A DNA stretch of 64,000 bases from Pseudomonas sp. MM213 (GTDB lineage: Bacteria > Pseudomonadota > Gammaproteobacteria > Pseudomonadales > Pseudomonadaceae): contig NZ_CP081943.1 in assembly GCF_020423045.1 (NCBI RefSeq), positions 5,022,001-5,086,000 of the forward strand, in the 5' to 3' direction. The notes below the pieces were generated by a model. It ran no database searches. It was not told the DNA's origin and was given only the letters and a program-made list of their open reading frames with translations. The translations under genes and the position numbers were made by a program. Shown here piece by piece: positions 654-13,404 of the stretch (the stretch's first letter is position 1; the number at the start of each line of letters is the position of its first letter).

Positions 654-2342
654 GTGACTGACAATACCCAGAAACCTACTAAGTTTCGTGACGTTGAAAT
701 CCGTGCCGCCCGCGGTAATAAGCTGACCGCCAAGAGCTGGCTGACCGAAGCGCCGCTGCGCATGCTGATGAACAACCTCGACCCGGAAGTCGCCGAGAAC
801 CCTAAAGAGCTGGTGGTTTACGGTGGTATCGGTCGTGCGGCGCGTAACTGGGAATGCTACGACAAAATTGTCGAAAGCCTGACCAACCTGAACGAAGACG
901 AGACCCTGCTGGTGCAATCCGGCAAGCCGGTCGGCGTGTTCAAGACCCACAGCAACGCTCCACGCGTACTGATTGCCAACTCCAACCTGGTGCCACACTG
1001 GGCGAGCTGGGAACACTTCAACGAACTCGACGCCAAAGGCCTGGCCATGTACGGCCAGATGACCGCCGGCAGCTGGATCTACATCGGTAGCCAGGGCATC
1101 GTTCAAGGCACCTACGAAACCTTCGTCGAAGCCGGTCGCCAACACTACAACGATGACCTCAAAGGTCGTTGGGTCCTGACCGCAGGCCTGGGCGGCATGG
1201 GCGGCGCTCAACCTCTGGCTGCAACCCTGGCCGGCGCTTGCTCGCTGAACATCGAATGCCAACAGGTCAGCATCGACTTCCGTTTGAACAGCCGCTACGT
1301 CGACGAGCAAGCCAAAGACCTCGACGACGCTCTGGCCCGCATCGAGAAATACACCAAGGAAGGCAAAGCGATTTCCATCGCCCTGCTGGGTAACGCTGCT
1401 GAAATCCTGCCGGAACTGGTCCGCCGCGGTGTGCGTCCGGACATGGTCACCGACCAGACCAGCGCCCACGACCCGCTCAACGGTTACCTGCCGGCCGGCT
1501 GGACCTGGGAAGAGTACCGCGCTCGTGCCAAGACCGAGCCTGCTGCCGTGGTGAAAGCCGCCAAGCAATCGATGGCCGTGCACGTTAAAGCGATGCTGGA
1601 TTTCCAGAAAATGGGCATCCCGACTTTCGACTACGGCAACAACATCCGTCAGATGGCCCAGGAAGAAGGCGTGGAAAACGCATTCGACTTCCCAGGCTTC
1701 GTACCAGCTTACATCCGTCCGCTGTTCTGCCGTGGTATCGGCCCGTTCCGTTGGGCTGCACTGTCGGGCAACGCCGAAGACATCTACAAAACCGACGCCA
1801 AGGTCAAAGAACTGATCCCGGACGACGCCCACCTGCACAACTGGCTGGACATGGCGCGCGAGCGCATCAGCTTCCAGGGTCTGCCGGCGCGTATCTGCTG
1901 GGTTGGCCTGGGCCTGCGCGCCAAGCTTGGCCTGGCGTTCAACGAAATGGTACGCAGCGGTGAATTGTCCGCGCCAATCGTGATCGGCCGCGACCACCTG
2001 GACTCCGGTTCGGTGTCGAGCCCGAACCGCGAAACCGAATCGATGCAAGACGGTTCCGATGCCGTGTCCGACTGGCCACTGCTCAACGCCCTGCTCAACA
2101 CCGCGAGCGGCGCGACCTGGGTTTCCCTGCATCACGGCGGCGGCGTCGGCATGGGCTTCTCCCAGCATTCCGGCATGGTGATTGTCTGCGACGGTACTGA
2201 CGAAGCGGCCGAGCGTATTGCCCGCGTTCTGCACAACGACCCGGCCACAGGCGTTATGCGTCACGCCGATGCGGGTTACCAGATCGCGATCGACTGCGCC
2301 AAGGAACAAGGGCTGAACCTGCCGATGATTACCGGTAAATAA
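654..2342 (+). CDS. hutU: Urocanate hydratase
   Basis: Cytosolic NAD+-dependent enzyme of 562 residues that converts urocanate to 4-imidazolone-5-propionate, step two of histidine breakdown. Family landmarks include the N-terminal [13 protein letters not shown] segment, the glycine-rich [16 protein letters not shown]-binding loop (about residues 178-190), and [15 protein letters not shown] near residues 494-508. The length is normal. The start is a GTG at 654 preceded by GAGGAG at 640-645. It is the first gene of the hutU-hutG unit, driven by the sigma54 promoter and HutC operator upstream. Confidence 0.97.
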
Positions 2343-2501: not shown

Positions 2502-3971
2502 ATGGCTGTTAACAACGATCGTGCAGGCAGCAAACCGTTGATCGAGAAACGTTCGATCGACTACATCCCGGAAGCGGAAAGACACGGTCGTCTGTTCAGC
2601 CAGTTCACGCTGTGGATGGGTGCCAACCTGCAAATCACCGCGATTGTCACCGGGGCCCTGGCCGTGGTGCTGGGCGGTGACGTGTTCTGGTCGTTGATCG
2701 GTCTGTTGATCGGTCAACTGCTCGGCGGCGGGGTGATGGCGCTGCACGCTGCGCAAGGGCCCAAGCTTGGCCTGCCGCAGATGATCTCCAGCCGTGTGCA
2801 GTTTGGCGTTTATGGCGCGGCGATCCCGATCGTGCTGGTGTGCCTGATGTACCTGGGCTTCACCGCAACGGGTACCGTGCTGTCCGGCCAGGCGCTGGGC
2901 CAGTTGTTTGGCGTCAGTGACACCGTCGGTATCCTCATCTTCGCCAGTGTCATCGTGCTGGTCACGGTGCTGGGGTATCGGGTGATCCACTGGATTGGCC
3001 GTATTGCCAGCGTCATTGGTGTGATTGCCTTCGTTTACCTGTTCAGCCGTTTGATGAGCCAGACTGACGTTGGCGCACTCCTGCAAATCCGCCACTTCAG
3101 CTGGAGCAGCTTCCTGCTGGCGGTGTCGCTCGCGGCGTCCTGGCAGATCGCCTTTGGTCCTTACGTGGCTGACTATTCACGCTACTTGCCGAGCAAGACT
3201 TCCTCGGTGAAAACCTTTTTCGCCGCGGGTGCAGGTTCGGTCATTGGCGCGCAGGTGGCGATGATCCTCGGCGTGTTTGCCGCCGCTTCGGCCAATGGGC
3301 AATTCGCCGGTCACGAAGTGGCCTACATCGTGGGTCTGGGTGGTACCGGTGCCACCGCTGCGCTGCTGTACTTCAGCATCGCGTTCGGCAAGGTCACCAT
3401 CTCCACGCTGAACTCCTACGGCAGCTTCATGTGCATCGCGACCATCATCAGCGGTTTCCGTGGTGACCTGAAAGTAACGCGCTTGCAGCGTCTGCTGTTT
3501 GTGCTGGTCATCGTGGGTGCGGCGACCCTGATGGCGTTGCTCGGCCAGCACTCGTTCCTCGGTGCGTTCAAGTCCTTCATCCTGTTCTTGCTGGCGTTCT
3601 TTACCCCATGGAGCGCGATCAACCTGGTGGACTACTACTGCATCACCCGCGAGCGCTATGACGTGCCGGCGCTGTCCGATCCGAACGGTCGTTACGGTCG
3701 TTGGAACGTTCTGGGTATCAGCGTCTATGTTTTCGGTGTGCTGGTGCAGCTGCCGTTCATCTCCAGCAAGTTCTATACAGGTCCGCTGGTGGCCGCTCTG
3801 GGTGATGTGGATATCTCCTGGATCATCGGCCTGGTGGTTCCCGCCGCCCTGTATTACGTGTGTGCAAAAAAATGGCACGGCACAGTGCCCGATCAACTGA
3901 TCCTGCCGGTCGAGCGGGACGTTATTACCGAACAAAAGCTGAATGTCGGTCGCGCTGCGGCGCAGGCCTGA
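2502..3971 (+). CDS. hutTu: NCS1 family permease, probable urocanate transporter (HutTu type)
   Basis: Inner-membrane protein of 489 residues with about twelve hydrophobic segments. It begins with the NCS1 (cytosine/purine/allantoin permease) signature region EKRSIDYIPEAERHG followed by LFSQFTLWMGANLQ. Its place directly after hutU matches the SBW25 gene reported as the urocanate transporter hutTu, so urocanate is the likely substrate; this is inference from position and family. The start is ATG 2502 with AGAGG upstream. Confidence 0.82.
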   Translation: MAVNNDRAGSKPLIEKRSIDYIPEAERHGRLFSQFTLWMGANLQITAIVTGALAVVLGGDVFWSLIGLLIGQLLGGGVMALHAAQGPKLGLPQMISSRVQFGVYGAAIPIVLVCLMYLGFTATGTVLSGQALGQLFGVSDTVGILIFASVIVLVTVLGYRVIHWIGRIASVIGVIAFVYLFSRLMSQTDVGALLQIRHFSWSSFLLAVSLAASWQIAFGPYVADYSRYLPSKTSSVKTFFAAGAGSVIGAQVAMILGVFAAASANGQFAGHEVAYIVGLGGTGATAALLYFSIAFGKVTISTLNSYGSFMCIATIISGFRGDLKVTRLQRLLFVLVIVGAATLMALLGQHSFLGAFKSFILFLLAFFTPWSAINLVDYYCITRERYDVPALSDPNGRYGRWNVLGISVYVFGVLVQLPFISSKFYTGPLVAALGDVDISWIIGLVVPAALYYVCAKKWHGTVPDQLILPVERDVITEQKLNVGRAAAQA

Positions 3972-4040
3972 TTGGACGTGGACAGGGCTGGATGCCTCTT
4001 GACTGCCGTAAGCCAATTCATGATTAGGAGCGTCACAACA

Positions 4041-5009
4041 ATGAAATCGAACAAGACCCTGCTGACCACATTGCTTTCCATGGGCCTGCTGGCCAGCGCC
4101 GGCGCCACTCAGGCAGCCGGTTGGTGCGAATCGGGCAAACCGGTGAAATTCGCCGGCCTGAACTGGGAAAGCGCCATGCTCCTGACCGACGTGCTGCAAG
4201 TCGTGCTGGAGAAAGGCTACGACTGCAAGACCGACAGCCTGCCGGGCAACTCCATCACCATGGAAAACGCCCTGAGCAGCAACGACATTCAAGTGTTTGC
4301 CGAAGAATGGGTCGGCCGCAGCGAAGTCTGGAACAAGGCCGAGAAGGCCGGCAAAGTCGTCGGTGTCGGTGCGCCAGTCGTGGGCGCAGTCGAAGGCTGG
4401 TACGTGCCGCGCTACGTGATCGAAGGCGACGCCAAGCGCAAACTGGAAGCCAAGGCGCCGGACCTGAAAAACATTGCTGACCTGGGCAAGTATGCCGCCG
4501 TGTTCAAGGACGCCGAAGAGCCCGCCAAGGGCCGCTTCTACAACTGCCCGGCGGGCTGGACCTGTGAGCTGGACAACAGCGAAATGCTGAAAAGCTACGG
4601 CCTGGAAAGCAGCTACACCAACTTCCGTCCGGGCACCGGCCCGGCACTGGATGCCGCAGTGCTGTCGAGCTACAAGCGTGGCGAGCCGATCCTGTTCTAC
4701 TACTGGTCGCCAACGCCGCTGATGGGCCAGGTTGACCTGGTGAAACTCGAAGAGAAGCCGGGCGTGGACAAGCGCGTGACCATCAAGGTCGGCCTGTCCA
4801 AGACCTTCCATGAGCAAGCCCCGGAACTGGTGGCCGTGCTGGAAAAGGTCAACCTGCCGATCGACCTGCTGAACCAGAACCTCGGGCGTATGGCCAAAGA
4901 GCGGATCGAGTCGCCAAAACTGGCCAAGATCTTCTTGAAGGAACATCCTGAAGTCTGGCACGCATGGGTGAGCGAAGACGCAGCCAAAAAGATCGACGCG
5001 GCCTTGTAG
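4041..5009 (+). CDS. hutX: Hut ABC transporter, periplasmic substrate-binding protein
   Basis: OpuAC-type binding protein of 322 residues with a clear signal peptide (MKSNKTLLTTLLSMGLLASAGATQA, cleaved near residue 25). Aromatic motifs GLNWESA and FYYWSPTPLMG line the ligand site in this family. It feeds the HutWV membrane complex. In Sinorhizobium meliloti HutXWV takes up histidine, and its place here suggests histidine or a related compound. ATG 4041 is chosen over upstream starts because TAGGAG (4024-4029) precedes it and the signal peptide then starts correctly. Confidence 0.88.
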   Translation: MKSNKTLLTTLLSMGLLASAGATQAAGWCESGKPVKFAGLNWESAMLLTDVLQVVLEKGYDCKTDSLPGNSITMENALSSNDIQVFAEEWVGRSEVWNKAEKAGKVVGVGAPVVGAVEGWYVPRYVIEGDAKRKLEAKAPDLKNIADLGKYAAVFKDAEEPAKGRFYNCPAGWTCELDNSEMLKSYGLESSYTNFRPGTGPALDAAVLSSYKRGEPILFYYWSPTPLMGQVDLVKLEEKPGVDKRVTIKVGLSKTFHEQAPELVAVLEKVNLPIDLLNQNLGRMAKERIESPKLAKIFLKEHPEVWHAWVSEDAAKKIDAAL

Positions 5010-5019
5010 GTTGAGCTTC

Positions 5020-5045
5020 TCCGACTGCCGTCAGCGGCAGTCGGA
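5020..5045 (+). promoter_or_regulatory. Intercistronic stem-loop between hutX and hutW
   Basis: Perfect 10-base arms TCCGACTGCC and GGCAGTCGGA enclose a 6-base loop. There is no U-run, so it is not a complete intrinsic terminator. At a binding-protein/permease junction such hairpins commonly protect the upstream message from 3' exonucleases and give more binding protein than permease. Confidence 0.75.
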
Positions 5046-5079
5046 TGCTTGATCGCAACCCCTTGATTGAGAGTCTCTT

Positions 5080-5931
5080 ATGTTTCCCGAAAGCTTTACC
5101 TTTTCCATCGCCGACTGGGTCAACGGTTGGGTCGATTCGCTGGTCACCAACTACGGCGATGTGTTCCGCAGCATCTCCGACACCCTGTTGTGGGCCATCG
5201 TCAATCTTGAAGGGCTGCTGCGTGCGGCGCCCTGGTGGCTGATGCTGGCGATCGTGGCGGGCGTTGCCTGGCACGCGACCCGCAAGGTCGTGACCACCTC
5301 CGTGATCGTCGGTTTGCTGTTCCTGGTGGGCGCGGTCGGCCTCTGGGACAAGCTGATGCAGACCCTCGCGCTGATGATGGTCGCGACGGTCATTTCGGTG
5401 CTGATCGGCATTCCGCTGGGCATTCTCTCGGCACGCAGCAATCGCCTGCGTTCGGTGCTGATGCCGTTGCTGGACATCATGCAGACCATGCCGAGCTTCG
5501 TGTACCTGATCCCGGTGCTGATGCTGTTTGGCCTGGGCAAGGTCCCGGCGATTTTCGCCACCGTGATCTACGCCGCGCCGCCGCTGATCCGCCTGACTGA
5601 TCTGGGCATCCGCCAGGTCGACGGTGAAGTGATGGAAGCGATCAACGCCTTCGGTGCCAACCGCTGGCAGCAACTGTTTGGCGTGCAATTGCCGCTGGCC
5701 CTGCCGAGCATCATGGCCGGGATCAACCAGACCACCATGATGGCCCTGTCGATGGTGGTGATTGCCTCGATGATCGGTGCCCGTGGCCTGGGTGAAGATG
5801 TGTTGGTGGGGATTCAGACCCTCAACGTCGGACGCGGCCTTGAAGCCGGTCTGGCGATCGTGATTCTGGCAGTGGTGATCGACCGCATTACACAGGCGTA
5901 CGGTCGTGCACGGCATGAGGTGAGCAAATGA
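5080..5931 (+). CDS. hutW: Hut ABC transporter, permease
   Basis: Permease of 283 residues related to ProW/OpuAB. Several hydrophobic segments follow an amphipathic N-terminus. The EAA-type cytoplasmic loop lies around EVMEAINAFGANRWQQLFGVQLPLALPSIMAGI (described by its ends only: EVMEAINAFG to LPSIMAGI). It would pair with HutV as the membrane channel. Its ATGA stop/start overlap with hutV (5928-5931) indicates translational coupling. Confidence 0.9.
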   Translation: MFPESFTFSIADWVNGWVDSLVTNYGDVFRSISDTLLWAIVNLEGLLRAAPWWLMLAIVAGVAWHATRKVVTTSVIVGLLFLVGAVGLWDKLMQTLALMMVATVISVLIGIPLGILSARSNRLRSVLMPLLDIMQTMPSFVYLIPVLMLFGLGKVPAIFATVIYAAPPLIRLTDLGIRQVDGEVMEAINAFGANRWQQLFGVQLPLALPSIMAGINQTTMMALSMVVIASMIGARGLGEDVLVGIQTLNVGRGLEAGLAIVILAVVIDRITQAYGRARHEVSK

Positions 5932-6758
5932 GCAACGCAGCCATCAGCAAGATCGAAGTCAAAAACGTCTTCAAGATTTTCGGTAACCGTTCCAAGGAAG
6001 CGCTGGGCATGATCGGCCAGGGCAAGACCAAGGATCAGGTGCTGGCCGAAACCGGCTGCGTGGTCGGTGTGAACGACCTGTCGTTGAGCATCGGCAGCGG
6101 CGAGATCTTCGTGATCATGGGCCTGTCCGGTTCCGGTAAATCGACCCTGGTGCGCCACTTCAACCGCCTGATCGACCCGACCAGCGGCGCGATCCTGGTG
6201 GATGGCGTGGACATCCTGCAGTACGACATGGAAGCCCTGCGCGAATTTCGTCGTCGCAAGATCAGCATGGTGTTCCAGAGCTTCGGCCTGTTGCCGCACA
6301 AGACCGTGGTGGACAACGTCGCCTACGGCCTGAAAGTGCGCGGCGAGAGCAAGCAGATGTGCACCGAACGCGCGCTGCACTGGATCAACACCGTGGGCCT
6401 CAAGGGCTACGAAAACAAATACCCGCATCAGCTCTCGGGCGGCATGCGTCAGCGTGTGGGCCTGGCACGTGCGTTGGCGGCGGACACCGACATCATCCTG
6501 ATGGACGAAGCCTTCAGTGCGCTCGATCCGCTGATTCGCGCCGAGATGCAGGACCAGTTGCTGGAGCTGCAAAAGACCCTGCACAAGACCATCGTCTTCA
6601 TCACCCACGACCTCGACGAGGCCGTGCGCATCGGCAACCGCATCGCGATCCTCAAGGATGGCCGCCTGATTCAGGTCGGCACCCCGCGAGAGATCCTGCA
6701 TTCGCCGGCGGATGAGTATGTCGACCGGTTCGTACAGCGGCGGGCGGCGGTGGTTTAA
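5928..6758 (+). CDS. hutV: Hut ABC transporter, ATP-binding protein
   Basis: ATPase of 276 residues. Walker A is GLSGSGKST, the ABC signature LSGGMRQRV, Walker B DIILMDEAFSALDP, and the switch histidine lies in FITHDLDEA. It resembles ProV/OpuAA but ends without the C-terminal CBS domains of osmoregulatory members, which fits a catabolic rather than osmotic role. Start overlaps the hutW stop by four bases. Confidence 0.92.
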   Translation: MSNAAISKIEVKNVFKIFGNRSKEALGMIGQGKTKDQVLAETGCVVGVNDLSLSIGSGEIFVIMGLSGSGKSTLVRHFNRLIDPTSGAILVDGVDILQYDMEALREFRRRKISMVFQSFGLLPHKTVVDNVAYGLKVRGESKQMCTERALHWINTVGLKGYENKYPHQLSGGMRQRVGLARALAADTDIILMDEAFSALDPLIRAEMQDQLLELQKTLHKTIVFITHDLDEAVRIGNRIAILKDGRLIQVGTPREILHSPADEYVDRFVQRRAAVV

Positions 6759-6784
6759 AGGTTTGCGGCGTTTGTGCCGGCCCC

Positions 6785-6836
6785 ATCGCGAGCAGGCTCG
6801 CTCCCACACCTGTAGGAGCGAGGCTTGCCCGCGAAG
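6785..6836. repeat. REP pair of mixed classes between hutV and hutH1
   Basis: A GCGAGC-class arm (inverted) abuts a GAGCGAGGCTTGCCCGCGAA arm with almost no spacer. The two arms belong to different REP classes, unlike most pairs in the window. Confidence 0.8.
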
Positions 6837-6885
6837 GCGGCGGTAGAGCTGCATCAATATTCAGGATGTACGGTTGAGGTTAATG

Positions 6886-8409
6886 ATGTCCCAGGCTGAA
6901 AAAATCGTTATCGCCGATGCCCCGTTGCGTTGGCAGGATGTGGTCGCGGTAGCCCGTCACGGCGCACAACTCGAGCTGTCGGCCCAGACCTGGGCACGCA
7001 TCGACAATGCCCAGGCGATCGTCCAGCGCATCGTCGCCAGCGGCGAACGCGCCTATGGCGTCAACACCGGCCTGGGCGCGCTTTGCAACGTATCGCTCAA
7101 AGACGAACAGCTCAGCCAACTGTCGCGCAACACCTTGCTCAGCCATGCCTGTGGCGTCGGCGCACCACTGGCCGACGAGCAGACCCGCGCGATCATGTGC
7201 GCAGCGATCCGCAACTACTCCCAGGGCAAATCCGGCATTCATCGGCAAGTGGTCGAAGCCTTACTGGCGCTGCTCAATCGGGGCATCACCCCGCAAGTGC
7301 CGTCCCAGGGTTCGGTCGGTTACCTGACCCACATGGCACACATCGGCATCGCACTGCTGGGTGTCGGCAATGTCAGCTATCGCGGGCAGATTGTTTCCGC
7401 TCAACAGGCGCTGGCTGAAGAAGGCCTGCAACCGGTTCAACTCGGTGCCAAGGACGGTTTGTGCCTGGTCAACGGCACGCCGTGCATGAGTGGCCTCAGC
7501 TGCCTGGCGATTGCCGATGCGACGCGCCTGCTGCAGTGGGCCGACGTAATCAGTGCCATGAGCTTCGAAGCCCAGCGCGGTCAGATCGCGGCGTTCGACG
7601 CCGAGATCATCGCACTCAAACCGCATCCGGGCATGCAACAGGTCGGGATCAACCTGCGGGCGCTGCTTGATGGCAGCGAAGTGATTGCCAGCAGCAAAGG
7701 CATTCGTACGCAGGATGCGCTGAGCATCCGGTCGATCCCGCAAGTCCATGGCGCCGCTCGCGATCAGCTCGATCACGCGATCAAGCAAGTCGAAACAGAA
7801 CTCAACGGCTGCACGGACAACCCGTTGCTGCTGGGCACGCCGGATGACTTCCGCGTCATGTCCCAAGCCAACCCACATGGCCAGTCGGTCGCGTTGGCGG
7901 CGGATTTGCTGGCGATTGCCATGGCCGAAATCGGCTCCATCGCCGAACGACGTCTGGACCGTTTGATCAACCCGCACGTCAGCGGTTTGCCGGCGTTCCT
8001 GGTGGCCAATCCGGGGGTGAACTCCGGGATGATGATCGTGCAATACGTCGCCGCTTCGCTGTGTGCGGAAAACCGCCAGTTGGCGCAACCGGCGGTGCTC
8101 GACAACTACGTCACTTCCGGCTTGCAGGAAGACCACCTGAGCATGGGCACCAACGCCGCGCTGAAGCTGCATCGCGCGCTGGAAAACTGCACGCAGATCC
8201 TCGCCATCGAGTACCTGCTGGCGGCCCAGGCTTTTGAGTTCCTCAAAGAGCAACGCTTCGGCGCCGGCACCGATGCGGCGTGGCGTCTGCTGCGAGAGCG
8301 TGTTCCGGCCTACGACCAGGATCGCTGGCTGGCACCGGACATCGCCGCCGCTGCCGGCGTATTGAAAGACTCGAATTTGCTGCACAAGGCTTTACCGAAT
8401 CTGAACTGA
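6886..8409 (+). CDS. hutH1: HutH paralogue lacking the MIO tripeptide (probably inactive as a histidase)
   Basis: Intact 507-residue member of the aromatic amino acid lyase family. It keeps [26 protein letters not shown] and LQEDHLSMG. Where histidases read [15 protein letters not shown], this protein reads [12 protein letters not shown] (residues 142-153): the Ala-Ser-Gly that cyclises into the MIO prosthetic group is absent by a net three-residue deletion. The active-site Tyr and Phe of HutH2 (in YSLRCQPQ and GGNFHAE) are also replaced ([15 protein letters not shown]). MIO-dependent deamination therefore cannot occur. SBW25 is also reported to carry one nonfunctional hutH. The long intact frame argues for a retained, different role. 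ATG 6886 is chosen for its spacing from GAGG at 6876-6879. Confidence 0.9.
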
Positions 8410-8510
8410 TTTCCACACAACACCAACGTGCCAAGGCGCGGCTCCCAAAAAGCGAGTCGCGACGGACAACGGATATCTCCGGAGCGTCTGGTGAGTCTTC
8501 TTCGTTTATG

Positions 8511-8518
8511 AAGAATAA
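8511..8518 (+). promoter_or_regulatory. Candidate Crc/Hfq binding motif upstream of hutH2
   Basis: AAGAATAA fits AANAANAA and lies 22 bases before the hutH2 ATG, just upstream of the AGGAG ribosome binding site at 8529-8533. This suggests translational catabolite repression of the active histidase. The rest of the 8410-8540 gap shows no gene. Confidence 0.35.
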
Positions 8519-8540
8519 AAACTCTCAAAAGGAGCACAAA

Positions 8541-10073
8541 ATGACTGCACTAAACCTGATCCCCGGCCAACTGAGCCTTGCCCAACTGCGTGATGTCTAT
8601 CAGCAACCGGTCAAAATCACCCTCGATAACAGCGCTGCTGCCCAGATCGAAGCCAGCGTTGCCTGCGTGGAACAGATCCTCGCCGAGAACCGCACCGCTT
8701 ACGGCATCAACACCGGTTTCGGCCTGCTGGCCTCGACCCGCATCGCCAGCGAAGACCTGGAAAACCTGCAGCGCTCGCTGGTGCTGTCCCACGCTGCCGG
8801 CGTCGGCGAGCCGATCAGCGACGCGTTGGTGCGTCTGGTCATGGTGCTCAAGGTCAACAGCCTGAGCCGTGGTTTCTCCGGTATTCGTCGCGTGGTCATC
8901 GACGCGCTGATCGCCCTGATCAACGCCGAGGTTTACCCGCACATTCCATTGAAAGGTTCGGTCGGTGCCTCCGGCGACCTGGCGCCATTGGCCCACATGT
9001 CGCTGGTGCTGCTGGGTGAAGGCAAGGCTCGTTACAAAGGCGAGTGGATGGAAGCGACCGAAGCGCTGAAAGTCGCCGGTCTGACCCCGCTGACCCTGGC
9101 CGCGAAAGAAGGCCTGGCGCTGCTCAACGGTACTCAGGTGTCCACCGCTTACGCGCTGCGTGGTCTGTTTGAAGGTGAAGATCTGTTCGCGGGCGCCCTG
9201 GCTCTGGGCGGCCTGACCGTCGAAGCGGTGCTGGGTTCGCGCTCGCCGTTCGACGCCCGCATCCACGCCGCCCGTGGCCAGAAAGGCCAGATCGACGCCG
9301 CTGCCGCTTACCGCGACTTGCTGGGCGAGCGCAGTGAAGTGTCCGATTCGCACGAGAACTGCGAAAAGGTCCAGGACCCGTACTCCCTGCGCTGCCAGCC
9401 GCAAGTCATGGGCGCCTGCCTGACCCAGTTCCGTCAGGCTGCCGAAGTATTGGCCGTCGAAGCCAACGCCGTTTCGGATAACCCACTGGTGTTCGCAGCT
9501 GAAGGTGACGTGATCTCTGGCGGTAACTTCCACGCCGAACCTGTCGCGATGGCCGCCGACAACATGGCCCTGGCCATCGCTGAAATCGGCTCGCTGAGCG
9601 AACGCCGCATCTCGCTGATGATGGACAAGCACATGTCGCAACTGCCGCCGTTCCTGGTGGCCAATGGCGGCGTGAACTCCGGTTTCATGATCGCCCAGGT
9701 GACCGCTGCGGCACTCGCCAGCGAGAACAAGGCGTTGTCCCATCCGCATTCGGTGGACAGCCTGCCGACCTCCGCCAACCAGGAAGACCACGTGTCGATG
9801 GCTCCGGCTGCCGGCAAGCGTCTGTGGGAAATGGCCGAGAACACCCGTGGCATCCTCGCGGTGGAATGGCTGGCCGCCGCTCAAGGCCTGGACCTGCGCG
9901 ACGGTCTGAAGACCTCGCCGAAACTGGAAAAGGCTCGGGCGATTCTGCGTAAAGAAGTGCCGTTCTATGAGAAGGACCGTTTCTTTGCGCCGGACATCAA
10001 TGCGGCCAGCGAGTTGTTGGCGACGCGTTGCCTGAATGAACTGGTATCGGCGAAGTTGCTGCCTAGTCTGTGA
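8541..10073 (+). CDS. hutH2: Histidine ammonia-lyase (active copy)
   Basis: Cytosolic homotetrameric lyase of 510 residues that removes ammonia from histidine to give urocanate, step one of the pathway. It has the intact MIO motif [14 protein letters not shown] with Ala-Ser-Gly at residues 143-145, plus [35 protein letters not shown] and NQEDHVSM, which carry the known catalytic Tyr, His, Asn, Gln, Arg, Phe and Glu. The frame is open far upstream, but ATG 8541 with AGGAG eight bases before it and the family N-terminus is clearly the start. The 131-base gap to hutH1 has no permease gene. Confidence 0.97.
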
Positions 10074-10080
10074 TGGCCTC

Positions 10081-10131
10081 TTCGCGGGCAAGCCTCGCTC
10101 CTACCTTGTAGGAGCGAGGCTTGCCCGCGAA
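10081..10131. repeat. Compact REPIN between hutH2 and hutI
   Basis: Near-perfect palindrome of two GAGCGAGGCTTGCCCGCGAA arms joined by only three bases (CTT). This is the shortest pair in the window and would fold as one continuous hairpin. Confidence 0.9.
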
Positions 10132-10160
10132 CCGATTTTGAACATTGTGGAGATTACGGG

Positions 10161-11366
10161 ATGAAAACTCTCTGGCAACACTGCCACGTCGCAACCATGG
10201 CGCAAGGCGTCTACTCGATCATCGAGGACGCGGCCATCGTGACGTCCGGTGCGCACATTGAGTGGATCGGCCCACGTGCTGAACTGCCGGCGGGTGAATA
10301 CCCGGCCGTCAACGATTTGAACGGGGCCTGGGTTACGCCGGGCCTGATCGACTGCCACACCCACACGGTGTTTGGCGGTAACCGCAGCGGTGAATTCGAA
10401 CAGCGTCTGCAAGGCGTCAGCTATGCGGAAATCGCCGCGGCCGGCGGCGGCATCGCCAGCACCGTGCGCGCCACGCGCGCGGCCAGTGAAGACGAGTTGT
10501 TCGCCAGCGCCGCCAAGCGGTTGAAGAGTTTGATGCGCGATGGCGTGACCAGCATCGAAATCAAATCCGGCTACGGTCTCGACCTGGCCAACGAACGCAA
10601 GATGCTGCGCGTGGCCCGCCGTCTCGGGGCCGAACTGCCGATCAGTGTGCGCAGCACCTGCCTGGCGGCCCACGCCTTGCCGCCGGAATACAAGGATCGC
10701 GCCGACGACTACATCGATCACATCTGCGCCGAGATGCTCCCGGCCCTGGCCGCCGAAGGGCTGGTGGATGCGGTGGACGCGTTTTGCGAATACCTGGCGT
10801 TTTCGCCGGCACAGGTCGAGCGCGTGTTCGTCACAGCGCAAAAACTGGGCTTGCCGGTGAAGCTGCATGCCGAGCAACTGTCGTCGTTGCACGGTTCGAG
10901 CCTGGCGGCGCGTTATCACGCTCTGTCCGCCGATCACCTGGAATTCATGACCGAAGAAGACGCCATCGCCATGGCCGCGTCCGGCACGGTCGCCGTGTTG
11001 TTGCCCGGCGCGTTCTACTTCCTGCGTGAAACCCAATTGCCGCCAATGGATGCGTTGCGCAAACACGGGGTGAAAATCGCCATCGCCAGCGACCTTAACC
11101 CCGGCACTTCGCCGGCGCTGTCGCTGCGCTTGATGCTGAACATGGCTTGCACCTGTTTCCGCATGACCCCGGAAGAAGCCCTGGCCGGTGCGACGATCCA
11201 TGCCGCCACCGCGCTGGGCATGGCCGAGACGCACGGCTCGCTGGAAGTCGGCAAGGTTGCGGATTTCGTTGCCTGGCAAATCGATCGTCCCGCCGACCTG
11301 TCGTACTGGCTGGGCGGTGACCTGGAAAAACGCGTCGTGCGTCACGGCGTCGAAACAAGCGTTTAG
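10161..11366 (+). CDS. hutI: Imidazolonepropionase
   Basis: Metal-dependent amidohydrolase of 401 residues that opens 4-imidazolone-5-propionate to N-formimino-L-glutamate, step three. The metal-binding HxH is in [10 protein letters not shown] (about residues 70-75). Further ligands are in KLHAEQLS (His) and [10 protein letters not shown] (Asp). KSGYGLD is a family signature. Length is normal. ATG 10161 has GGAG upstream. The hutG ribosome binding site overlaps its stop codon. Confidence 0.96.
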
Positions 11367-11376
11367 GAGAGCAGTT

Positions 11377-12180
11377 GTGGATAAGGTTCTGAACTTCAAA
11401 CAAGGCCGCGTGCCGCTGCTGATCAGCATGCCCCACGCCGGCGTGCGCCTGACCCCGGCGGTTGAAGCCGGGTTGATCCCCGACGCGAAAAGCTTGCCGG
11501 ACACTGACTGGCACATCCCGAAACTCTACGAATTCGCTGCCGAGCTGGGCGCCAGCACCCTGGCTGCCGAGTACTCGCGCTTCGTCATCGACCTGAACCG
11601 ACCGTCTGACGACAAACCGTTGTACGTCGGCGCCACCACCGGTCTGTACCCGGCGACGCTGTTCGATGGCATTCCGTTGTTTCGTGAAGGCATGGAACCG
11701 TCGGCGGCTGAGCGTGCGACGTATCTGGAGCAGGTCTGGACGCCGTATCACAGCACGTTGCAGAACGAGCTGGCTCGTATGAAAGCCGAATTCGGCTATG
11801 CATTGCTGTTTGATGCGCACTCGATCCGCTCGATCATCCCGCACCTGTTCGACGGAAAGCTGCCGGACTTCAACCTCGGCACGTTCAACGGCGCCAGTTG
11901 CGATCCACAGTTGGCGACTCAACTGGAAGCGATCTGCGCCAGGCACACCGATTACAGCCATGTGCTGAACGGGCGCTTCAAGGGCGGCCACATCACCCGG
12001 CACTACGGCAATCCGGCGCAAAACATCCACGCCGTGCAACTGGAGTTGGGCCAGTGCACGTACATGGAAGAGTTCGAGCCGTTCCGTTATCGCCCGGACC
12101 TGGCAGAGCCGACGCAAGTGGTGCTCAAGGAGTTGCTGCAAGGGCTGCTGACCTGGGGCCAAAAGCACTACAGCCCCTGA
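11377..12180 (+). CDS. hutG: N-formylglutamate deformylase
   Basis: Enzyme of 267 residues of the N-formylglutamate amidohydrolase family. It hydrolyses formylglutamate to glutamate and formate, the last step of the five-step route in which HutF (outside this window) makes formylglutamate. Visible landmarks are ISMPHAGVR, SRFVIDLNR and FDAHSIRS. The start is taken as GTG 11377, with AGGAG at 11365-11369 overlapping the hutI stop; the frame is open much further upstream inside hutI. Confidence 0.93.
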   Translation: MDKVLNFKQGRVPLLISMPHAGVRLTPAVEAGLIPDAKSLPDTDWHIPKLYEFAAELGASTLAAEYSRFVIDLNRPSDDKPLYVGATTGLYPATLFDGIPLFREGMEPSAAERATYLEQVWTPYHSTLQNELARMKAEFGYALLFDAHSIRSIIPHLFDGKLPDFNLGTFNGASCDPQLATQLEAICARHTDYSHVLNGRFKGGHITRHYGNPAQNIHAVQLELGQCTYMEEFEPFRYRPDLAEPTQVVLKELLQGLLTWGQKHYSP

Positions 12181-12456: not shown

Positions 12457-13404
12457 ATGAAAAGACTGTTGACCTGCTGTCTCTCAATCCTCTGCGGTAC
12501 CGCTCTTCTGAGCACCCCTGTTCTGGCCAGTGACGATGCTTCCTGCAAAGCCGTGCGCATGGGCGTGGTCAACTGGACCGACGTCATCGCCACCAGCGGC
12601 ATGGCCGACGTGCTGCTCAACGGCCTTGGCTACGAAAGCAAGCAAACCAGCGCCGTGCAGCAAATCATCTTCGCTGGCATCCGCGACAAGCGCCTGGACA
12701 TCTTCCTCGGTTACTGGAAACCGGCGATGGACAAAAACATCGCGCCGTTCCTGGCCGCCAATCAAGTGAAGGTCCTGGAAAAACCGAGCCTGGCCGACGC
12801 CCAGGCAACCCTCGCCGTGCCGGAATACGTGGCCGAGGCCGGGCTGAAAACCTTCGCCGATATCGCCAGGTTCAAGGACCAGCTCGGCGGCAAAATCTAC
12901 GGCATCGAGCCGGGCAGTGGCGCCAACACCACGATCAAAACCATGATCGAGTCCAATCAGTTCGGCTTGAAGGATTTCAAACTGATCGAGTCCGGTGAGG
13001 CCGGCATGCTTGCCGCCGTGCAACGGGCGGTGAATCGCAAGGAGTTCGTGGTGTTCGTCGGCTGGACTCCGCACCCGATGAACATCAACATGAAAATCGC
13101 CTACCTGACCGGCAGCGAAGACGTTTACGGGCCAAACGAAGGCGCGGCGACGGTCTCCACCGTGACGTCCCCGGACTACGCCGAGCGTTGCCCGAACGTG
13201 AACCGCTTGCTGGAGAACCTGACCTTCACCGCCGCCCAGGAAAGCCAGCTGATGGTGCCGATCATGGAGCGCAAGACGCCGCAGGACGTGGCCAGGCAGT
13301 GGCTGCGTGATCATCCGCAAGACCTGCAGCGCTGGTTGGCCGGTGTCAGCAGTTTTGATGGCAAGGATGGTGTTGCCACCGTTCAGGCCAGCCTGAAAAA
13401 CTGA
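12457..13404 (+). CDS. Orphan quaternary-amine ABC transporter binding protein (BetX/CbcX/CaiX-like)
   Basis: Periplasmic binding protein of 315 residues with a signal peptide ending ...TPVLA (residue ~24). It has the spaced aromatic residues of choline/betaine-binding proteins: GVVNWTDV, FLGYWKPAMD, KIYGIEPGSGAN and VGWTPHPMN, corresponding to the Trp/Tyr box of ChoX. No permease or ATPase gene is adjacent. Pseudomonads are known to have such orphan proteins (BetX, CaiX) that dock to the shared CbcWV core, so choline, betaine or carnitine binding is likely; which one cannot be told. Ribosome binding site before ATG 12457 is weak. Confidence 0.78.
   Translation: MKRLLTCCLSILCGTALLSTPVLASDDASCKAVRMGVVNWTDVIATSGMADVLLNGLGYESKQTSAVQQIIFAGIRDKRLDIFLGYWKPAMDKNIAPFLAANQVKVLEKPSLADAQATLAVPEYVAEAGLKTFADIARFKDQLGGKIYGIEPGSGANTTIKTMIESNQFGLKDFKLIESGEAGMLAAVQRAVNRKEFVVFVGWTPHPMNINMKIAYLTGSEDVYGPNEGAATVSTVTSPDYAERCPNVNRLLENLTFTAAQESQLMVPIMERKTPQDVARQWLRDHPQDLQRWLAGVSSFDGKDGVATVQASLKN

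Follow-up and report, generated by a model that had tools for sequence, protein, structure and literature searches.

A histidase-like protein without the MIO tripeptide in the Pseudomonas hut operon, a candidate lyase for a histidine betaine

The hut operon of Pseudomonas sp. MM213 encodes two proteins of the histidine ammonia-lyase (HAL, histidase) family, HutH1 and HutH2, and the first of them lacks the Ala-Ser-Gly tripeptide of the MIO cofactor. What would such a protein do, and what keeps it in the genome? We addressed these questions in a window of 64,000 nucleotides, by which we mean the whole stretch of DNA that was analysed, and compared HutH1 with its relatives, its gene neighbours and other lyases of the same fold.

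The cofactor site of HutH1 and the residues around it

The hutH1 gene (6886..8409, + strand) is an open frame of 507 amino acids, with an ATG at 6886 and a stop codon ending at 8409. Its product matches the aromatic amino acid lyase superfamily profile PF00221 with 562.5 bits (residues 14-471, profile positions 1-466 of 466) and is 39% identical to HutH2 over 477 aligned columns (pairwise alignment, E 9e-108). HutH1 also scores above the cut-off of the hutH family TIGR01225 (547.9 vs 539.15), a probable reason for its automatic annotation as histidine ammonia-lyase even though the MIO residues are absent. Based on both profiles and the motif and active-site comparison, we annotate HutH1 as a HAL-fold lyase without MIO, proposed to be a histidine-betaine (hercynine) trimethylamine-lyase. 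HutH2 (8541..10073, + strand, 510 aa) is a canonical MIO histidase, with Ala-Ser-Gly present and a TIGR01225 score of 728.8 bits. The genome contains two further members of the family, one of which (L003) keeps Ala-Ser-Gly, while the other (L004) has another 10-residue reading.

The codon table and the HutH1/HutH2 alignment place the site of the lost tripeptide at 7309..7341 (+ strand). GSVG is encoded at 7309-7320 and is followed by Tyr-Leu-Thr-His-Met-Ala-His from 7321. The site contains 11 residues in HutH1 and 14 in HutH2, a net difference of exactly three. The residue numbers of HAL used below are those of the Pseudomonas putida enzyme. Tyr280, a catalytic residue of HAL, is replaced by Leu279 in HutH1 (codon 7720..7722, + strand), as the motif QDPYSLRCQ has become QDALSIRS, and Phe329 is replaced by Pro330 (codon 7873..7875, + strand), as GGNFHAE has become QANPHGQ; both assignments come from the alignment, with HutH1 numbers counted along its sequence. 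These results confirm the original prediction that the tripeptide was cleanly removed, that other catalytic positions were altered and that the 507-codon frame is intact.

To describe the site more broadly, we collected 81 HutH1-type proteins, consisting of the best 80 of 569 named loci and HutH1 of the window. The named loci were found with patterns from HutH1-type sequences and favour close relatives; the 81 proteins are at least 61% identical (500 pairs sampled), and 191 of the 507 positions are invariant. The MIO tripeptide is absent from all of them and Phe329 is replaced by Pro in 81/81, while Tyr280 is replaced by Leu in 78 and by Met in three. Eight HAL positions, Y53, H83, N195, Q277, R283, N313, M382 and E414, are kept in every protein. 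Four of the corresponding HutH1 codons (+ strand) are those of Tyr57 (HAL Tyr53, 7054..7056, invariant in A1 and A2), His87 (HAL His83, 7144..7146), Arg282 (HAL Arg283, 7729..7731) and Glu415 (HAL Glu414, 8128..8130). Across the wider clade, all rows examined share Leu at position 280. Conservation is looser elsewhere: other branches have Ala, Cys or Gly in place of Phe329, and the Klebsiella member has Gly for Asn195. A further variation, Leu for Thr at position 277-1, is seen in the branch of L066, L067 and L034-L036.

The kept and lost positions can be read against histidase mutants. According to the part of PMC11432326 that treats these residues, Y52, H82, N194 and E411 of Geobacillus histidase (equivalent to Y53, H83, N195 and E414) are essential, and the F329G mutant of P. 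putida HAL is inactive with MIO not formed (PMC11432326). PDB titles name the HAL mutants Y280F, F329A, F329G and D145A. By this comparison, HutH1 has lost the residues predicted to form or position MIO or to act together with it, while the putative ring- and carboxylate-binding residues and Tyr53 are kept. HutH1 lacks the Ala-Ser-Gly, the Tyr280 and the Phe329 by which a histidine ammonia-lyase (EC 4.3.1.3) is recognised. The predicted structure of HutH1 has a mean pLDDT of 91.4, but its weakest part (mean 65) is residues 141-150, the site itself. The model fits histidase with a TM score of 0.92 and ergothionase with 0.91.

Conservation, selection and descent

Of the 199 Pseudomonas genomes sampled, 137 have a HutH1 match (E 1e-130 or better), at 139 places. 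Two of the 139 matches have a stop inside, one TGA each (G099 and G122), in both cases among the three final codons of the matched stretch. The same site motif is found in all of the best 120 HutH1 homologues among 7999 scored candidates. Within the best 80 of the 569 named loci, the motif takes one form in 66, GSVGYLSHMAH in 13 and a third form in one. A protein from another Pseudomonas (L037) is 50% identical to HutH1, and its best 120 relatives, which include Rhizobium and Paraburkholderia proteins, all have GS[VL]GY at the site. The missing tripeptide is neither a matter of chance nor an assembly error.

Selection on HutH1 was assessed by dN/dS across Pseudomonas, a check proposed beforehand, and the values lie around 0.1 rather than near 1, with disruptions rare. 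Computed on HutH1 columns only, 1282 of the 2016 pairs among 64 sequences had dS of 0.1-1 and gave a median dN/dS of 0.113; the other 734 were dropped. Where both genes could be measured (1014 pairs), the medians were 0.090 (HutH1) and 0.052 (HutH2), and HutH1 had the higher value in 987 of these pairs. Values above 0.3 occur in 87 of the 1282 kept pairs, with a maximum of 0.66; these are strongly diverged sequences for which dS is probably saturated. HutH1 is therefore under purifying selection, which is clear but somewhat looser than that on HutH2. The three-residue loss is fixed in every clade member sampled, and a search among these members for an orthologue with the tripeptide found none. 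Both results favour the original prediction, which had named the opposite outcomes as refuting it.

A decaying copy of hutH would be expected to evolve faster than its intact paralogue, as HutH1 does relative to HutH2. However, the low median dN/dS, the confinement of both stops to the very end of the match, and the divergence of HutH1 into its own clade, with about 39-40% identity to HutH2, make decay an extremely improbable explanation. Recent decay in particular is refuted by the genus matches, the tree and dN/dS.

The tree was built from 37 hand-picked rows without the site columns. The 27 sampled proteins with the three-residue deletion form one clade (support 96/91), and ergothionase 6s7j forms a separate clade with two rhizobial relatives (100/99). 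The AU test does not reject a tree that unites the HutH1-type clade with the ergothionase group (p-AU 0.161). As the branches that come together at this point are long, MIO may have been lost either once or twice. The sequence of 6s7j was taken from its alignments with the two rhizobial proteins, L088 (6001-7524) and L086 (5992-7497), whose best PDB match it is (299 and 266 bits, respectively). Both have a site that is one residue shorter. The L086 gene is annotated as histidine ammonia-lyase; hutC precedes it, and the product of the gene after it is annotated as a glycine betaine binding protein.

Members of the HutH1 clade also occur on plasmid records from Erwinia (69% identity), Burkholderia (54.6%), Rhizobium (about 50%), Priestia (46.7%) and Klebsiella (42%), and the three-residue loss is present in each plasmid-record member examined. 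Annotated surroundings were viewed for four matches of the first plasmid list and nine of the second. Among Klebsiella plasmid records, 226 have some HutH1 match; the one examined (L083, 461-10334) has a hut cluster that encodes both an MIO-less lyase (GSVGYLIATAH) and an importer of the betaine type. L066, L067 and L034-L036 represent a more distant branch, in which L034-L036 are 58-60% identical to HutH1 of the window. The L037 protein mentioned above belongs to a second subfamily of MIO-less lyases and lies (4476-10504) amid an MR_MLE enzyme, a Rieske oxygenase, an Ldh_2 dehydrogenase and a Fer2 reductase. The reductase gives a DmmA-like match just below cut-off, and the cluster may represent another betaine pathway.

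The importer and the hut neighbourhood

The genes around hutH1 form a hut operon that includes an importer. On the + strand of the window, hutU (654..2342) would encode urocanase, the proposed next enzyme, and is named from the hut context and from hutU annotations of its relatives. It is followed by a gene for an NCS1-type permease at the hutTu position (2502..3971; TIGR00800 123.8 bits, below the cut-off of 353.1); the gene at this position is called urocanate transporter hutTu in PMC8871633. Three importer genes on the same strand come next. The hutX gene (4041..5009, with the ATG at 4041 as the chosen start) encodes a betaine-type (OpuAC/ProX) binding protein with an OpuAC score of 208.3 bits; in our comparisons the hutX query began at 4002 or 4044 instead. 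The hutW product (5080..5931) is an ABC permease nearest to the ChoW/ProW choline/betaine models (TIGR03416 294.7 bits, below the cut-off of 363), and that of hutV (5928..6758) is an ABC ATPase of the betaine/proline/choline family (TIGR01186 369.9 bits, above the cut-off of 326.6). With an OpuAC binding domain and a betaine-family ATPase, HutXWV has the features of a betaine-type ABC importer. The end of hutV is 127 bp from hutH1. Downstream of hutH2 on the + strand are hutI (10161..11366), for imidazolonepropionase, named from the hut context and annotated relatives, and the frame holding hutG (11188..12180), named from gene order; hutG labels in the locus comparisons, for which the reference began out of frame at 11360, were set aside. 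Beyond the hut genes, a choline-type binding protein is encoded at 12457-13404 (OpuAC; TIGR03414 440.8 bits, cut-off 379.05).

The best PDB sequence match of HutX is 7yle, a betaine/proline-type binding protein (91.5 bits), which we take to be the DMSP-binding protein DmpX. Five Trp residues common to HutX and 7yle are conserved in 61/61 HutX sequences. The AlphaFold model of HutX has a mean pLDDT of 53.7 and was set aside.

An ABC ATPase gene lies directly upstream of HutH1 in all 80 best named loci, with a gap of -19 to 181 bp (median 22). The upstream importer gene is hutV in 48 Pseudomonas loci, and in 32 Enterobacterales loci the importer is an SBP_bac_3-type system, as at L078, with no betaine-type OpuAC. 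Outside the 80, the arrangement is frequent without being general: an importer also adjoins the lyase gene at L079-L081, L089, L083 and L039. Betaine-type importer proteins adjoin the lyase on the Klebsiella plasmid L083 and, by annotation, the ergothionase relative L086. HutH1 lies between hutU and hutH2 at L034-L036 with no importer beside it; none lies beside it at L090, and an MFS transporter precedes it at L082. This constant importer upstream of HutH1 in the best loci points to a substrate.

The gene is also associated with urocanase. hutU is present in 32/32 enterobacterial genomes with HutH1. In a phylum-wide sample of 398 genomes, it was found in 16/16 genomes with the site motif vs 138/382 without (Fisher 1.5e-7, a guide only, as the rows are related by descent). 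At four loci (L101, L110, L118 and L123), a hutU about 74% identical to that of the window adjoins HutH1, and their genomes (G772, G781, G789 and G794) have two hutU matches each. Among the 16 genomes with the motif, just two, G000 and G221, have a second hutU match.

We presume that PA5093 of P. aeruginosa, a probable histidine/phenylalanine ammonia-lyase, is the counterpart of HutH1. The module is present in P. aeruginosa (PMC8871633), and PA5093 of strain PAO1 is called hutG in the part of PMC12772324 that names it. A role in the uptake of histidine has been ascribed to HutXWV (PMC8871633), which counts against an importer for betaines only.

A proposed activity and its rivals

An MIO-less enzyme of this fold gives a precedent. 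As described in the pertinent part of PMC13405746, ergothionase converts ergothioneine to thiourocanate and trimethylamine without MIO. HAL-fold lyases without MIO are thus already known. The ergothionase of Treponema denticola (6s7j/6s7q) resembles HutH1 in its fold, in the lack of Ala-Ser-Gly, in the change of Tyr280 to Leu (QDPLSFR) and in keeping Y53, H83, Q277, R283 and E414. It differs in that its site (SSIG-EG-DITTLSH) is one residue shorter, against three in HutH1, in keeping Phe329, and in having Ser at N195 and Gly at M382. Histidase (P. putida HAL 1b8f and HutH2), on the other side, has the fold, the imidazole, carboxylate and Tyr53 positions and the hut operon setting in common with HutH1, but possesses the MIO tripeptide, Tyr280 and Phe329, where HutH1 has none, Leu and Pro. 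HutH1 scores higher with histidases than with ergothionase (7tqr 362 bits vs 225 for 6s7j, the 14th sequence listed).

Taken together, we consider it quite probable that HutH1 works as some kind of MIO-independent lyase. Our best explanation, to which we give a probability of roughly 55%, is that HutH1 splits a histidine betaine brought in from outside, with hercynine (N-alpha-trimethylhistidine) as the likeliest substrate, into trimethylamine and urocanate. In the proposed mechanism, HutXWV, or an unrelated importer elsewhere, would bring in hercynine. HutH1 would hold the imidazole ring and the carboxylate as histidase holds those of histidine, and the trimethylammonium group would fill the room left by MIO and the side chains of Tyr280 and Phe329. 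A beta proton would be abstracted and trimethylamine would depart to leave urocanate, which HutU, HutI, HutF and HutG would carry on to glutamate. The reaction would not call for an electrophilic cofactor, as trimethylamine leaves readily by itself. Hercynine is the best match because of the dedicated importer, the entry before urocanase, the imidazole-and-carboxylate pocket and the lack of MIO for amine loss. The sequences themselves show the loss of the cofactor site and its two partner residues beside an otherwise conserved pocket, selection, a single clade, the importer upstream and the link to urocanase. From these we infer the catalysis, the betaine character of the substrate, its identity as hercynine and the direction in which the pathway runs.

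Several observations count against this explanation. The match of ergothionase to HutH1 is partial by sequence, and ergothionase is not the nearest relative. The importers of the enterobacterial and rhizobial members have SBP_bac_3 proteins and not betaine-type ones, and an importer is not beside every member (L034-L036, L090). Among the genes noted in these loci, none is for the use of trimethylamine. A betaine-type binding protein also does not name its ligand, as seen with EgtU of the ergothioneine ABC importer. EgtU, as we propose for HutX, is a binding protein of the betaine type that takes up a histidine betaine in an aromatic cage, and its affinity for hercynine is about 10,000-fold below that for ergothioneine (PMC9732360). 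EgtU thus strongly prefers ergothioneine, and HutX is a separate protein, likened to EgtU by description.

The original prediction took the long undamaged frame as a sign of selection for a non-catalytic role, with HutH1 as a sensor of histidine or urocanate or as a partner that tunes HutH2 activity in mixed tetramers. Selection, and the view that HutH1 is not a usual histidase, were borne out. The non-catalytic role itself now seems unlikely, given the kept pocket residues, the ergothionase precedent and the importer. It would agree with an absent cofactor beside kept ligand-binding residues and with the presence of canonical HutH in 137/137 genus genomes that have HutH1, vs 50/62 others, and in 32/32 enterobacterial genomes with HutH1, although in one of these (G790, L119) hutH is in two pieces. 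This co-occurrence does not separate the explanations. The accompanying HutH changes in type while HutH1 stays: in the enterobacterial genomes it is 76-79% identical to HutH2 in 8/32 and about 57-61% in 24/32, and in 10 of the 137 Pseudomonas genomes the best HutH reaches only E 1e-176 to 1e-195. Moreover, a partner or sensor needs neither an importer directly upstream nor the specific loss of MIO, Tyr280 and Phe329, which is partly common to ergothionase. A non-catalytic role is less supported because the residues for MIO and the free amino group were lost selectively, while those for the ring and the carboxylate, and Tyr53, were kept in 81 proteins. We note two individual genomes here. In G790, the HutH1 frame is whole although the canonical hutH is split in two matched pieces, and in G773 (L102), a HutH1-type match to the HutH2 query spans one TAG, possibly the gene's own stop.

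Two further alternatives retain catalysis with a different chemistry. HutH1 might be an ergothionase in function, acting on ergothioneine or its sulfonate and yielding thiourocanate or a derivative instead of urocanate. The fold, the missing MIO and the Leu at 280 would suit this, and the extra hutU of about 74% identity, in genomes with two hutU, could mean that a modified urocanate is processed. This explanation is nevertheless unlikely, since HutH1 falls in a clade different from that of 6s7j (although the joint clade is not rejected), keeps HAL Asn195 and Met382, which ergothionase does not, and lies in an ordinary hut operon in Pseudomonas, with two hutU in few of the motif genomes. Ergothionase is tied in the literature to ergothioneine and not to hut operons. 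Somewhat less likely again, HutH1 could eliminate another leaving group from a histidine-like substrate without MIO, for example from another N-methylated or N-oxidised histidine. solA, annotated as N-methyl-tryptophan oxidase, adjoins relatives at L081 and L089, the Rieske oxygenase and the weak DmmA-like reductase match are present at L037, and the pocket surroundings are QANPHG/NYVTSG in one subfamily vs QAHAVG/GGITSG in the other. As the pocket differs between the two subfamilies, their substrates probably differ. For the hut-linked subfamily, however, hercynine is the simplest substrate that would give urocanate and whose leaving group requires no activation.

Neither a description of HutH1 as MIO-less nor one of a hercynine lyase was found in the literature searched, which was mostly open-access. 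Our broader proposal, which we hold tentatively and at somewhat less than even odds, is that HutH1 founded a new activity, hercynine trimethylamine-lyase, by deletion of its cofactor. The loss of three residues and of the side chains of two partners would have made room for a quaternary ammonium group. Paired with swappable importers, HutH1 would then offer an additional way into the histidine pathway, found in Pseudomonas, Enterobacterales, Burkholderia, Rhizobium and Priestia. Hercynine is made by fungi and actinobacteria. If the proposal is true, a family called histidine ammonia-lyase, present in 137 of the 199 genus genomes sampled, would be a different enzyme, one that releases trimethylamine and puts hercynine to use. 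The apparent dispensability of hutH1 and hutXWV for growth on histidine would be accounted for as well. More generally, a lyase would have shed its built-in cofactor by dropping the electrophile and two partner residues, retaining the rest and taking a substrate with a ready leaving group. Two such losses, in HutH1 and ergothionase, with the same change of Tyr280 to Leu, would make this a testable rule of cofactor shedding.
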